DNA of 64,000 nt. It comes from Nocardiopsis algeriensis. Its GTDB lineage: Bacteria > Actinomycetota > Actinomycetes > Streptosporangiales > Streptosporangiaceae. The notes below the pieces were generated by a model. The model was given only the letters and a program-made list of their open reading frames with translations, had not been told where the DNA came from and searched no databases. This document shows, piece by piece, positions 2,529 to 6,569 of the stretch. Numbering within the stretch: the stretch's first letter is position 1; the number at the start of each line of letters is the position of its first letter. The position numbers and the translations under genes were made by a program. The stretch spans positions 248,001-312,000 of the forward strand of contig NZ_JACHJO010000004.1 in assembly GCF_014203695.1 (NCBI RefSeq). Direction: 5' to 3'.

Positions 2529-3623
2529 TCAGCGGCCGCCGCTCTCCACGATGGTCTCGATGACGGCCTTCTCCCGCCTCCTCACGAGCCGGACCGCGCG
2601 CTCGTAGCCGCGGCTGGCGATCTCGGCGCGGGCGGCGGCCGTGCGAACCGTGGGCCACATCGCGTCGATCTCGGCGTTGAAGCAGGAGCCGACCAGCACC
2701 GCGATGGCCATCACGTACAGCCACGCCAGAACGGCGATCGGCGCGGCCAGGGAGCCGTAGATGCTCGTCTGACCGAAGGATGCGCCCAGGTAGGCGCGCA
2801 GGCCCACCGAGCCGCAGAGGAGAAGGAGGGTGGCCAGCAGCGCGCCGGGCAGGTGGCGCCACAGCGGCGTGCGCACCGGGACGCTGAGGAGGTAGAGGAG
2901 GGTGACCGAGGTGGCGGCCAGCAGGGCGACCGTCGGCCAGTACAGCAGGTCGAGCCGCAGCGAGAAGGCCCCGGGCAGCAGTCGGCGCAGCAGGTCGGGT
3001 CCGGCCACCAGGACGGGCAGCACGACCAGGGCGAACGCGAGGCCGCCCAGGTAGGCGGCGAAGGCGAGGGAGCGCTGGGCGAGCCAGCCGCGCAGCTCGC
3101 TGAGCCCGTAGGCGATGGTCACGGAGCGGATGAAGACGTTCATCGCGCGCGAGCCCGACCACAGGGAGACCAGGAAGGTGAGCGACAGGATCCCGCCCTG
3201 GGCCCCGCCGAAGAACTCGTCGACCATGGGTGCCACCAGGGAGTCGACGGCCTCCTGCGTCAGCACGTGGGCGGCCAGGTCGAGGATCCACAGCCTGACA
3301 CCCTCGACCAGCCCCTCCCCCAGCACGGCCGCCAGCGGCGCCAGTGCGCCGAGCAGACCGAGCATGAGGGCGGGCAGGGAGATGATGGTGAAGAAGGCCG
3401 ACTCGGCGGCCAGGCCCAGTACGCGGTGGCGGGCGAAGGAGCGGAGCGTGCGCAGGACGAGGAGCGTGCTGCCGCGCACGAGGGGATGCGCCCTGAGCCA
3501 GGCGTCGGTGATGCGCCACAGCCCTTCCCAGAAACCCGCCACGAGAAGAACGTTAGCGTCCGCGCCGACCTGCGGCATCACCGGGGCGTGACGTGGCTCA
3601 CCTCCGGCCCTTGCGGAAGGCAC
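2529..3623 (-). CDS. YihY/BrkB family inner-membrane protein
   Basis: 364 residues with about six transmembrane segments, in the usual size range for YihY/virulence factor BrkB proteins. The family pattern is visible: an early segment with AESAFFTIISLPALMLGLLG, a central acidic amphipathic stretch (QEAVDSLVAPMVDEFFGG), and a late SIYGSLAAPIAVLAWLYVMA segment followed by FNAEID. The last 50 residues are basic and cytoplasmic. The family was once annotated as RNase BN, which is wrong; its molecular role remains uncertain. The start could be the ATG at 3623 or the one 15 codons later (3578). It is divergent from the sulfur-assimilation operon, and its 5' end lies within 40 bases of the Cys leader peptide. 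Confidence 0.85.
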   Translation of the reverse strand: MPSARAGGEPRHAPVMPQVGADANVLLVAGFWEGLWRITDAWLRAHPLVRGSTLLVLRTLRSFARHRVLGLAAESAFFTIISLPALMLGLLGALAPLAAVLGEGLVEGVRLWILDLAAHVLTQEAVDSLVAPMVDEFFGGAQGGILSLTFLVSLWSGSRAMNVFIRSVTIAYGLSELRGWLAQRSLAFAAYLGGLAFALVVLPVLVAGPDLLRRLLPGAFSLRLDLLYWPTVALLAATSVTLLYLLSVPVRTPLWRHLPGALLATLLLLCGSVGLRAYLGASFGQTSIYGSLAAPIAVLAWLYVMAIAVLVGSCFNAEIDAMWPTVRTAAARAEIASRGYERAVRLVRRREKAVIETIVESGGR

Positions 3624-3660
3624 CTGGACAAGGGAGCGGCGCCCATGACATTCTCATGGC

Positions 3661-3750
3661 ATGTTCGCTGTCCTGGACCCCATGCTCTACGTGCGTCGGC
3701 ACGTGGACCTCCTCAGGGTCGGCAGCGCCATCTGTTGCAGCGTCGGTTAA
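3661..3750 (+). CDS. Short Cys leader peptide upstream of the sulfite reductase operon
   Basis: A 29-codon frame from the ATG at 3661; a second in-frame ATG at 3682 would give 22 residues. It ends RRHVDLLRVGSAICCSVG, with two adjacent Cys codons (TGT TGC) four codons before the stop. This is the RRHVDL...S.A.C pattern of the putative leader peptides found ahead of sulfur-metabolism genes in Streptomyces and relatives. In mycobacteria, poly-Cys leader ORFs have been shown to act as cysteine-responsive attenuators, often on leaderless transcripts. No clear ribosome site precedes either ATG, which fits leaderless translation. It lies 172 bases before the reductase start. The role in attenuation is inferred. 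Confidence 0.75.
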   Translation: MFAVLDPMLYVRRHVDLLRVGSAICCSVG

Positions 3751-3766
3751 TCTCGCCGCCTTTTGA

Positions 3767-3783
3767 CGCACCCCAGGGGTGCG
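3767..3783 (+). promoter_or_regulatory. Small hairpin between leader peptide and reductase gene
   Basis: A 7-bp stem with a three-base loop (CGCACCC-CAG-GGGTGCG) begins 16 bases after the leader-peptide stop. It sits where a translation-coupled attenuator would act, with the rest of the 150-base leader being G+C rich and able to form alternatives. It has no U-tract, so a Rho-dependent or translation-occlusion mechanism is as likely as termination. The function is a guess from position. Confidence 0.35.
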
Positions 3784-3922
3784 CGCGGCACCGGCGCCCT
3801 CCCCTTTCTTCCCACACACGCGGTATCACCCGCGGCCTCGCACGACGACGTGCGGTGCCGAGGGCCGACGGTGCGGGCGCCGGGACCGTGAGCGCCCCGC
3901 GACCCCATCGGAGACACCCGCG

Positions 3923-5593
3923 ATGCCTCCCTCTTCCGTCAAGCCCCGCCGTCGGCGCGGTGAGGGCCAGTGGGCCCTCGGCTACCGTGAACCGCTGAAC
4001 AAGAACGAGGAGAACAAGAAGAACGACGACGGGCTCAACGTCCGCGAACGGATCATCAACATCTACGCCAAGGGCGGGTTCGACTCGATCGACCCCTCCG
4101 ACCTGCGTGGGCGTTTCCGCTGGTACGGCCTCTACACCCAGCGCGCTCCGGGGATCGACGGCGGCAAGACCGCGATCCTGGAGCCGGAGGAGCTCGACGA
4201 CCGCTACTTCATGATGCGCGTGCGCATCGACGGCGCACAGCTGTCGGTCGCCCAGGTGCGCGCCATCGGCGAGATCTCCCGCGACCACGCCCGCAACACC
4301 GCCGACATCACCGACCGGCAGAACATCCAGTACCACTGGGTCGAGATCGAGGACGTGCCGGCGATCTGGGAGAAGCTGGAGTCGGTGGGCCTGTCCACCA
4401 CCGAGGCCTGCGGTGACACCCCGCGCGGCATGCTGGGCTGTCCGCTGGCCGGCGTGGCCGAGGACGAGGTCATCGACCCCACGCCCCAGCTGCGGCAGAT
4501 CTACGAGGACCACATCGGCAGCCCGGAGTTCTCCAACCTCCCCCGCAAGTTCAAGACGTCCGTGTCGGGCTGCTCGGTCCACTGCGTCAACCACGAGATC
4601 AACGACGTGGCCTTCGTGGGTGTGCGCAACGAGCGGGGCGAGGTCGGCTACGACCTGCAGGTGGGCGGCGCCCTGTCCACCAACCCGATGTTCTCCGTGC
4701 GGCTCGGCGCGTTCGTGAGCCCGGAGCGGGTGAGCGAGGTGTGGGCGGGCGTCTGCTCGATCTTCCGCGACTACGGCTACCGGCGCCTGCGCTCGCGCGC
4801 CCGCCTCAAGTTCCTCGTCAAGGACTGGGGCGCGGAGAAGTTCCGCGACGTCCTGGAGAAGGAGTACCTGGGCTACGCCCTGCCCGACGGCCCCGCTCCG
4901 GTGCTCGACTCGGGCCTGCGCCGCGACCACGTGGGCGTGCACCGCCAGCGCGACGGCAAGTACTACGTGGGGTTCGCCCCGCGGGTGGGCCGCGTGTCGG
5001 GCACGACGCTGCTGCGCGTCGCCGAGATCGCCGAGGAGCACGGCTCCGACCGCATCTGCACCACGCCCGACCAGAAGCTCGTCATCCTCGACGTCGAGGA
5101 GGAGCGGATCGCCTCCATCACCGCCGCGCTGGAGGCCGAGGACCTCCAGGTCAACCCGAGCACGTTCCGCCGCCAGACGATGGCGTGCACCGGCATCGAG
5201 TACTGCAAGCTCGCGATCGTGGAGACCAAGCAGCGCGCCTCCACCCTCATCGACGAGCTGGAGAAGCGGCTCCCGGACTTCACCGAGCCGCTGACCATCA
5301 ACGTCAACGGCTGCCCGAACTCGTGCGCGCGCGTGCAGGTCGCCGACATCGGCTTCAAGGGCCAGCTGGTGGTCGACGAGCGCGGCGAGCAGGTGGAGGG
5401 CTACCAGATCCACCTGGGTGGCGGCATGGGGCTGGACGCGGCCTTCGGCAAGAAGGTGCGCGGCCTGAAGACCACCGCCGAGGAGATGCCCGACTACATC
5501 GAGCGGGTGCTGCGCCGGTTCCAGGAGCAGAAGCAGGACGGCGAGTCGTTCGCGTCCTGGGCGGCCCGCGCCTCCGACGACGACCTGAAGTGA
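3923..5593 (+). CDS. sir: Siroheme- and 4Fe-4S-dependent sulfite/nitrite reductase
   Basis: 556 residues from the ATG at 3923 (GGAGA eight bases upstream). It reduces sulfite to sulfide, or nitrite to ammonia, with ferredoxin as donor, using a siroheme bridged to an iron-sulfur cluster. The cluster cysteines are C422 and C428 (ACTGIEYC) and C464 and C468 (NGCPNSC). The basic siroheme-site block TDRQNIQYHW and the conserved SVSGCSVHC stretch are also present. The following APS reductase and sirohydrochlorin chelatase-like genes argue for sulfite as the main substrate, as for mycobacterial SirA/NirA. It is the first full gene of the operon. Nitrite use cannot be excluded from sequence. Confidence 0.93.
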   Translation: MPPSSVKPRRRRGEGQWALGYREPLNKNEENKKNDDGLNVRERIINIYAKGGFDSIDPSDLRGRFRWYGLYTQRAPGIDGGKTAILEPEELDDRYFMMRVRIDGAQLSVAQVRAIGEISRDHARNTADITDRQNIQYHWVEIEDVPAIWEKLESVGLSTTEACGDTPRGMLGCPLAGVAEDEVIDPTPQLRQIYEDHIGSPEFSNLPRKFKTSVSGCSVHCVNHEINDVAFVGVRNERGEVGYDLQVGGALSTNPMFSVRLGAFVSPERVSEVWAGVCSIFRDYGYRRLRSRARLKFLVKDWGAEKFRDVLEKEYLGYALPDGPAPVLDSGLRRDHVGVHRQRDGKYYVGFAPRVGRVSGTTLLRVAEIAEEHGSDRICTTPDQKLVILDVEEERIASITAALEAEDLQVNPSTFRRQTMACTGIEYCKLAIVETKQRASTLIDELEKRLPDFTEPLTINVNGCPNSCARVQVADIGFKGQLVVDERGEQVEGYQIHLGGGMGLDAAFGKKVRGLKTTAEEMPDYIERVLRRFQEQKQDGESFASWAARASDDDLK

Positions 5594-5670: not shown

Positions 5671-5865
5671 GTGTCCGAGAGGGCCGCACCCTACTACTGC
5701 CCCTACTGCGGTGAGGAGGACCTGGTGCCCGAGGAGGGCGCCGCGGTGAAGGGCGAGGGCTACCCGTGGGCCTGCCTGTCCTGCGCCCGGGTGTTCCGGG
5801 TCAAGTACGCGGGCCTGCGCTCGGCCTCCTTCGGCGGCACACCCCCCAGACAGACGGAAGGGTAG
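5671..5865 (+). CDS. Small zinc-ribbon protein in the sulfur operon
   Basis: 64 residues from a GTG at 5671 with GAGGAG seven bases before it. Four cysteines in two knuckles (C10-PY-C13 and C35-LS-C38) form a compact zinc ribbon or rubredoxin-like fold. The C-terminal third is basic and probably disordered. It sits between the reductase gene and the APS reductase, two bases before the latter's ATG, so the two are translationally linked. Small proteins of this kind occur at the same place in other actinomycete sulfur operons, from memory. Its function is unknown; an electron-transfer or chaperone role for the reductases is only a suggestion. Confidence 0.8.
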   Translation: MSERAAPYYCPYCGEEDLVPEEGAAVKGEGYPWACLSCARVFRVKYAGLRSASFGGTPPRQTEG

Positions 5866-5867
5866 AG

Positions 5868-6569
5868 ATGAACACCGCCATCACCCCCGTGGGCGGCCCC
5901 GAGCTCGCCGAGCGCGCCGCTCGCGAGCTGGAGGAGGCCACCGCCCAGGAGATCATCGCCTGGGCCGCCGAGACCTTCGGCGACGGACTGTGCATGACCT
6001 CGTCCATGGCCGACTCCCTCATGGTCGACCTCGCCTCCAAGGTGGTCCCGGGGATCGACGTGATCTTCCTGGACACCGGGTACCACTTCCCCGAGACCAT
6101 CGGCACCCGCGACGCGGTGGAGTCGGTCTACGACATCAACCTCGTCAACGTGGAGCCGTCCCGCACGGTGGCCGAGCAGGACGCGGCGCTGGGGCCGCGG
6201 CTGCACGGGCGGAATCCGGAGCTGTGCTGCCACCTGCGCAAGGTCGAACCGCTGCAGAAGGCGCTCGCACCGTACTCGGCGTGGCTGACGGGCCTGCGCC
6301 GCGAGGACTCGGCTGCCCGCCGCGACACCCCGGTCGTGCAGTGGGACCGGCGCAAGCGGATGACGAAGGTCAACCCGATCGCACGTTGGACGCAGGAGCA
6401 GGTCGACTCCCACATCGCCGAGCACGGTGTGCTGGTGAACCCGCTGCAGTACGACGGCTACCCGTCGATCGGCTGCGAGCCGTGCACCCGCAGGGTGGCG
6501 CCGGGCGAGGACCCGCGCAGCGGCCGCTGGTCGGGGACGGGGAGGACCGAGTGCGGCATCCACGTCTAG
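5868..6569 (+). CDS. cysH: Assimilatory APS reductase (4Fe-4S type)
   Basis: 233 residues. It reduces adenylyl sulfate to sulfite and AMP with thioredoxin as donor. The signature separating the APS form from PAPS reductases is complete: C120-C121 (ELCCHLRK), C203-EP-C206 (SIGCEPCTR), which bind the 4Fe-4S cluster, and the catalytic cysteine C229 in the terminal TECGIHV. The N-terminal half is an adenine-nucleotide alpha-hydrolase fold with the TSMADS and DTGYHFPET motifs. The ATG at 5868 is set two bases after the preceding stop, with the ribosome site inside that gene's last codons. ATP sulfurylase genes (cysD/cysN) do not follow it, so they must lie elsewhere. Confidence 0.94.
   Translation: MNTAITPVGGPELAERAARELEEATAQEIIAWAAETFGDGLCMTSSMADSLMVDLASKVVPGIDVIFLDTGYHFPETIGTRDAVESVYDINLVNVEPSRTVAEQDAALGPRLHGRNPELCCHLRKVEPLQKALAPYSAWLTGLRREDSAARRDTPVVQWDRRKRMTKVNPIARWTQEQVDSHIAEHGVLVNPLQYDGYPSIGCEPCTRRVAPGEDPRSGRWSGTGRTECGIHV

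Follow-up and report, generated by a model that had tools for sequence, protein, structure and literature searches.

The 29-codon open reading frame (ORF) upstream of sir in Nocardiopsis algeriensis is probably (roughly three chances in four) a leaderless, cysteine-responsive attenuator of the NF042934 family, and the codon that would sense cysteine is a single UGU. Such a leader would offer the sir operon a way to track the cysteine supply without a dedicated repressor; cysteine-dependent regulation of the operon is what we infer from the sequence features described below. The near-absolute UGU amid UGC neighbours is a distinctive mark, open to testing through a single base change; it separates codon-level from peptide-level sensing and gives a simple rule to find and order such leaders in genomes.

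In the window, the 64,000-nt stretch of DNA that was analysed, the leader ORF runs from ATG 3661 to TAA 3750 and reads MFAVLDPMLYVRRHVDLLRVGSAICCSVG. Its stop is separated by 172 nt from the sir ATG at 3923, which bears out the 29-codon frame 172 bases 5' of sir described in an earlier note on this DNA. The peptide matched the NCBIfam profile NF042934 ('putative leader peptide') over profile positions 1-19 of 19 with 36.4 bits (E = 2.6e-9), above the curated cut-off of 27 bits, and its place 5' of sir, with cysH after sir, is also that of a member. Judged by its sequence, the sir leader is a genuine and strongly conserved member of a leader family already catalogued in actinomycetes. The RRHVDL pattern, recognized by the same note as an actinomycete leader type, was thus confirmed by the profile match and by the mostly sulfur-related genes downstream of family members, and the small hairpin it had placed after the leader is present as GCACCC/GGGTGC at 3768-3782. 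The coordinates of the features are collected in Table 1.

Table 1. Features in and around the sir leader region (positions in the window)
Feature	Position	Strand	Evidence
Palindrome GTGA-N6-TCAC, CRP/FNR-type operator-like site	3588..3601	.	sequence and genus column block
-35 element TGGACA	3625..3630	+	conserved in genus
-10 element CATTCT	3649..3654	+	conserved block in genus alignment
Leader ORF MFAVLDPMLYVRRHVDLLRVGSAICCSVG*	3661..3750	+	NF042934, 36.4 bits; 40/40 genus genomes; without indels
Candidate sensing codon, Cys UGU (codon 25, position 14 of the motif)	3733..3735	+	40/40 genus, 110/110 class, 66:1 (leaders share ancestry)
Structure A	3740..3797	+	97.5% of cells paired across the 40 orthologues, with an invariant outer helix
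Structure B, long-range stem (3777-3799 with 3875-3897) that competes with A	3777..3897	+	RNAalifold consensus
Pyrimidine-rich, G-poor tract, possible Rho-loading site	3798..3819	+	C-G skew
Hairpins D (3829-3865) and C (3870-3896), covarying	3829..3896	+	double-change cells vs shuffles
Shine-Dalgarno GGAGA of sir	3910..3914	+	invariant in 40/40 orthologues
sir, ferredoxin-type nitrite/sulfite reductase	3923..5593	+	Pfam NIR_SIR, NIR_SIR_ferr
cysH, (P)APS reductase ORF	5766..6569	+	Pfam PAPS_reduct; NCBIfam phosphoadenylyl-sulfate reductase

Each of the 40 genomes sampled from the genus carries the leader ORF, always with a length of exactly 90 nt; the spacer to sir varied from 172 to 194 nt. 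Residues V11, R12, R13, H14, V15, D16, R19, V20, S22, A23, I24, C25, S27, V28 and G29 were invariant, and synonymous changes were observed at R12, R13, D16, R19, V20, S22, A23 and G29, indicating that the leader peptide is under selection at the protein level. The body RRHVDLxRVxSAIC is kept as protein, and within codons 11-24 the third codon position varied in 9 columns and the first two positions in 5. Lack of conservation of the Cys codons 5' of sir in relatives, named in the earlier note as an observation that would speak against its proposal, was looked for in the same genomes. All 40 keep the ORF, with TGT as the first Cys codon (codon 25), so that a conserved Cys codon near the stop, as expected of a cysteine-responsive leaderless attenuator, is present. 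The second codon of the proposed pair fared differently, being replaced by Arg in 9/40 genomes (TGTTGC to TGTCGC). The reading of the ORF as a Cys leader is therefore supported, but its conserved element is one UGU and not a Cys pair, nor the poly-Cys run that characterizes the mycobacterial leaders Ms5788A and Ms4527A.

NF042934-type leaders were detected in 110 of the 148 sampled genomes of the class, and a single genome had as many as 11. Among genomes sampled from the phylum, matches were confined to class members, except for one weak partial match outside. For the class survey, 111 leaders were extracted together with their downstream genes. These genes were mostly related to sulfur, including rhodanese-type sulfurtransferases, sir, cysH, cysteine synthase, TauD, SsuE-like proteins and sulfatase; DUF4395 proteins, cysteine dioxygenase, a peptide-binding protein, an SDF transporter, and luciferase-like and FMN reductases were also found. 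A ROK protein and 2-oxoacid ferredoxin oxidoreductase were exceptions without an obvious sulfur link; in L142, L147, L175 and L201 the leader stands 5' of the alpha subunit of 2-oxoacid:ferredoxin oxidoreductase, a gene with no obvious tie to cysteine. The last Cys codon lies 1-9 codons from the stop in 110/111 survey leaders. In L137, possibly a decayed leader, a leader-like motif 5' of a GST-like gene ends AISLV*, and Ser (AGC) takes the place of the Cys. In the same genome as the sir leader, one further leader above the family cut-off precedes a rhodanese sulfurtransferase (L058, G000:C1:230812-230862), and two weaker leader-like ORFs below it precede an FMN reductase (L059, C2:213543-213596) and an SDF transporter (L060, C2:435097-435132). 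One short ORF, of a kind that usually goes unannotated, is in this way tied to a class-wide network.

A predicted promoter lies directly upstream of the leader. The TGGACA and CATTCT elements are spaced by 18 bp, and the -10 element ends 6 bp 5' of the leader ATG. The alignment covered 31 of the 40 genus orthologues and shows CTGGACA without variation; the other nine carry it too. This spacing would place the transcription start at or next to ATG 3661, making the leader mRNA leaderless. Across the family, a TANNNT sequence was found 5-8 nt before an in-frame start in 61/109 leaders, compared to 5% in shuffled sequence. Further upstream, the GTGA-N6-TCAC palindrome coincides in the genus alignment with a block of conserved columns, GTGA(C/T)GTGACTCAC. 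The palindrome is centred some 66 bp 5' of the leader ATG, and the start of the divergent gene (~3542, minus strand) is about 52 bp away, an arrangement suggesting that sir has a second input, at the level of transcription. The divergent ORF, at 2529-3542 on the minus strand, encodes a membrane protein; its likely GTG start has a TAACGT -10 sequence some 6-7 nt 5' and also looks leaderless.

In the reading that we prefer, transcription would start at or next to the leader ATG, so that every transcript of the sir operon begins with translation of the leader, and the conserved nascent chain RRHVDLxRVxSAI would lead the ribosome to the invariant UGU. With Cys-tRNA in short supply, the ribosome would wait with UGU in the A site and cover the codons that directly follow, which make up the 5' arm of an RNA pairing with sequence further downstream; the pairing of this arm is supported by conservation, and its masking by the ribosome is what we infer. 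When cysteine is ample, the ribosome would end at the stop four codons later and leave, the arm would re-pair and expression would fall. In many family members the partner of the arm would be the Shine-Dalgarno (SD) sequence of the next gene, that is, translational attenuation in which the waiting ribosome frees the SD. In this genus the partner would be a segment about 45 nt downstream, otherwise held in a long-range stem (structure A vs structure B), and the final step may act either through access to the SD or through termination by Rho in the pyrimidine-rich spacer. A ribosome stalled at UGU, by covering the tail, would leave the SD free, which is the same logic as in the Cys leaders of M. 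smegmatis, where poly-Cys leaderless ORFs work by attenuation (PMC9031893; PMC13236596).

In the 111 survey leaders, the 12 nt starting 0-6 nt after the UGU were more complementary to the next 90 nt than shuffled sequences, with mean z values of -0.57, -0.82 and -0.38 at offsets 0, 3 and 6; at the control offsets the mean was about 0 (-36, -24, 12 and 18) or -0.28 (-12). This complementarity landed on the SD of the next gene in 9/10 leaders of cysteine dioxygenase genes and 7/13 leaders of DUF4395 genes, for example TCCTGAC facing GTCAGGA. The pattern suggests translational attenuation through an SD-complementary tail in many short-spaced leaders, and it offers the sort of partner that actinobacterial cys leaders lacked in the 2005 survey (PMC1262725). 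Cysteine dioxygenase is preceded by family leaders with such tails in L102, L114, L116, L117 and L120-L125. The occurrence of the family 5' of this gene counts against the mechanism, as low-cysteine induction of a purely catabolic enzyme would appear to run the wrong way, unless the enzyme serves to salvage sulfur from other thiols.

Two conserved, mutually exclusive structures were found downstream of the UGU in the genus. In structure A, the leader tail GCGUCGG (3740-3746) pairs with CCGGCGC (3791-3797) in an outer helix that is invariant in 40/40 orthologues, enclosing GCCGC (3755-3759) paired with GCGGC (3785-3789) and the small hairpin; as the arms are nearly invariant, the genus allows no covariation test of it. 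Structure B shares the downstream segment with structure A and ends just before the sir SD. In structure B, 93% of cells were paired, compared to 37-49% when the arms were slid, and the MFE z was -2.5; its pairing is supported but strong covariation is not, since the changes are mostly one-sided. Hairpins C and D together contained 31 double-change cells against 10.4 in shuffles, and 0/500 shuffles reached as high a value. The energy difference between A and B was 3.0 +/- 4.9 kcal/mol. A switch by equilibrium sequestration of the SD depending on ribosome position was rejected: blocking constraints for the ribosome footprint left the predicted accessibility of the sir SD unchanged in 40 orthologues, and the cost of opening the SD in A exceeded that in B by only 1.1 +/- 1.3 kcal/mol, a difference in favour of the proposed mechanism but within model error. 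No Rfam match was obtained up to E = 1 in 3400-4100.

Transcription attenuation by Rho is a possible but rather unlikely alternative, by which Rho would load on the C-rich, G-poor spacer once the leader is finished and stop transcription before sir, and a stalled ribosome or the competing fold would block loading. It would fit the finding of 0 terminator-like sites in 3500-4000, where neither the small hairpin at 3768-3782 alone nor any GC-rich hairpin with a U-tract of the classical trp type makes an intrinsic terminator. The spacer is also strongly biased to C over G, with a C-G skew of about +0.45 in 40-nt windows at the pyrimidine-rich tract in the genus and of +0.22 after the leader, compared to 0 before the promoter, in the class survey; yet 5' regions of high GC content may often contain C-rich tracts. 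For the cys leaders of mycobacteria, Rho had already been put forward in 2005 (PMC1262725), but in the many relatives whose tail is complementary to the SD it is not needed.

The codon usage of the conserved Cys was examined across the survey, whose leaders had been found by an amino-acid profile and hence blind to codons. At motif position 14 (R1-x-x-V-D5-L6-x-R8-...-C14), Cys is encoded by TGT in 110/110 leaders, the 111th having Ser, and an independent DNA pattern search for RRHVDLxRVxSA[ILMV]C in 395 genomes gave 66 matches ending in TGT (64 genomes, 27 genera) vs 1 ending in TGC, counts that are not independent events as the leaders share ancestry. At the other Cys positions of the motif TGC prevailed over TGT (48:3 at position 7, 35:8 at position 12 and 6:0 at position 13), and the genes downstream of the leaders contained 289 TGC and 25 TGT codons. 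Every class of downstream gene in the survey follows the UGU rule. The rule is near-absolute, with TGC exceptions in L195, a genuine sir leader and the one TGC match of the pattern search, and L185, a low-scoring multi-Cys match. An origin of UGU in a lower GC content of the leaders was rejected, given that other Y-ending two-fold codons in them are T-ending in only 60/368 cases and that TGC predominates at the remaining Cys positions of the motif. A part of UGU in the RNA pairing is unlikely, because complementarity begins only after it. UGU is decoded by wobble (G-U) with the single Cys tRNA, Cys-tRNA(GCA), and the simplest reading would be that position 14 is the sensing codon owing to this wobble decoding. 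Tentatively, and at somewhat under even odds, we propose that it acts as a codon-level sensor, common to nearly all actinomycete leaders of the family, in which the nascent chain and the weaker codon together confer high sensitivity to Cys-tRNA charging, possibly also to the sulfur-dependent ms2i6A37 of the Cys tRNA; UGC would then blunt or abolish regulation. A homologue of miaB, the tRNA thiolation gene, is present. No report of the UGU rule was found in the literature; an earlier one may exist, and the rule may be a new point, perhaps unfamiliar to specialists.

The same codon bears on the idea that the leader is an arrest peptide, in which a sulfur metabolite would be sensed by the nascent chain within the exit tunnel, and not simply by a ribosome waiting for Cys-tRNA. 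R1, D5, L6 and R8 are near-invariant over the 111 leaders despite varied synonymous codons, and the excess of third-position variation in codons 11-24 of the genus points the same way, as a conserved peptide body is not required in classical attenuators. However, conservation of the body is overstated in a survey picked by peptide profile, and a pure peptide-level sensor would accept UGC where UGU is fixed. We regard this explanation as improbable. Far more doubtful still is a functional micropeptide, or delivery of ribosomes to sir by translational coupling, with no sensing of cysteine. The conserved peptide and a leaderless start that would load ribosomes are compatible with it, but the mostly sulfur-related genes downstream, the position of the last Cys in nearly all survey leaders and the constraint on UGU at the codon level argue against it, and the spacer in the genus is too long for simple coupling. 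A chance ORF, conceivable where 95 ORFs of at least 20 aa occur in 12 kb, is refuted by conservation without indels in 40/40 genomes and by the family match above the cut-off.

Canestrari et al. (2020) reportedly described the mycobacterial poly-Cys leaderless leaders Ms5788A and Ms4527A. The sir leader resembles them in its predicted leaderless start, Cys near the stop, sulfur genes downstream and RRxVDLxR body, but the profile similarity is weak (21.3 and 20.7 bits vs family cut-offs of 45 bits). They carry a Cys run in place of one conserved Cys codon, and the RNA part differs. From the NF042934 entry (cis_reg_atten) the peptide shows no difference over the whole 19-position profile; the UGU signature, being at the codon level, lies outside any protein profile. 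Candidate cys leader peptides were described by Seliverstov et al. (2005) in Mycobacterium, Propionibacterium and Bifidobacterium (PMC1262725). Like the sir leader, these are small reading frames that carry Cys codons close to their stop, and no terminator was found; unlike it, they have runs of Cys codons, and no conserved partner structure was reported for them (PMC1262725), whereas here the tail is complementary to the SD or the spacer. The cysS leader uORFC-8-2 of Rhodobacterales, with Cys codons at 14-15, is likewise an attenuator using leader Cys codons, but it belongs to Alphaproteobacteria and has tandem Cys, mostly UGC, and an intrinsic terminator (PMC8632094). A literature search found no papers on Streptomyces sulfite reductase leaders.

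Downstream of sir, the true start of cysH is probably further inside the ORF given in Table 1. A small ORF between sir and cysH (~5675-5865, plus strand) encodes two CxxC pairs (PYYCPYCGEEDL...CLSCARVF).
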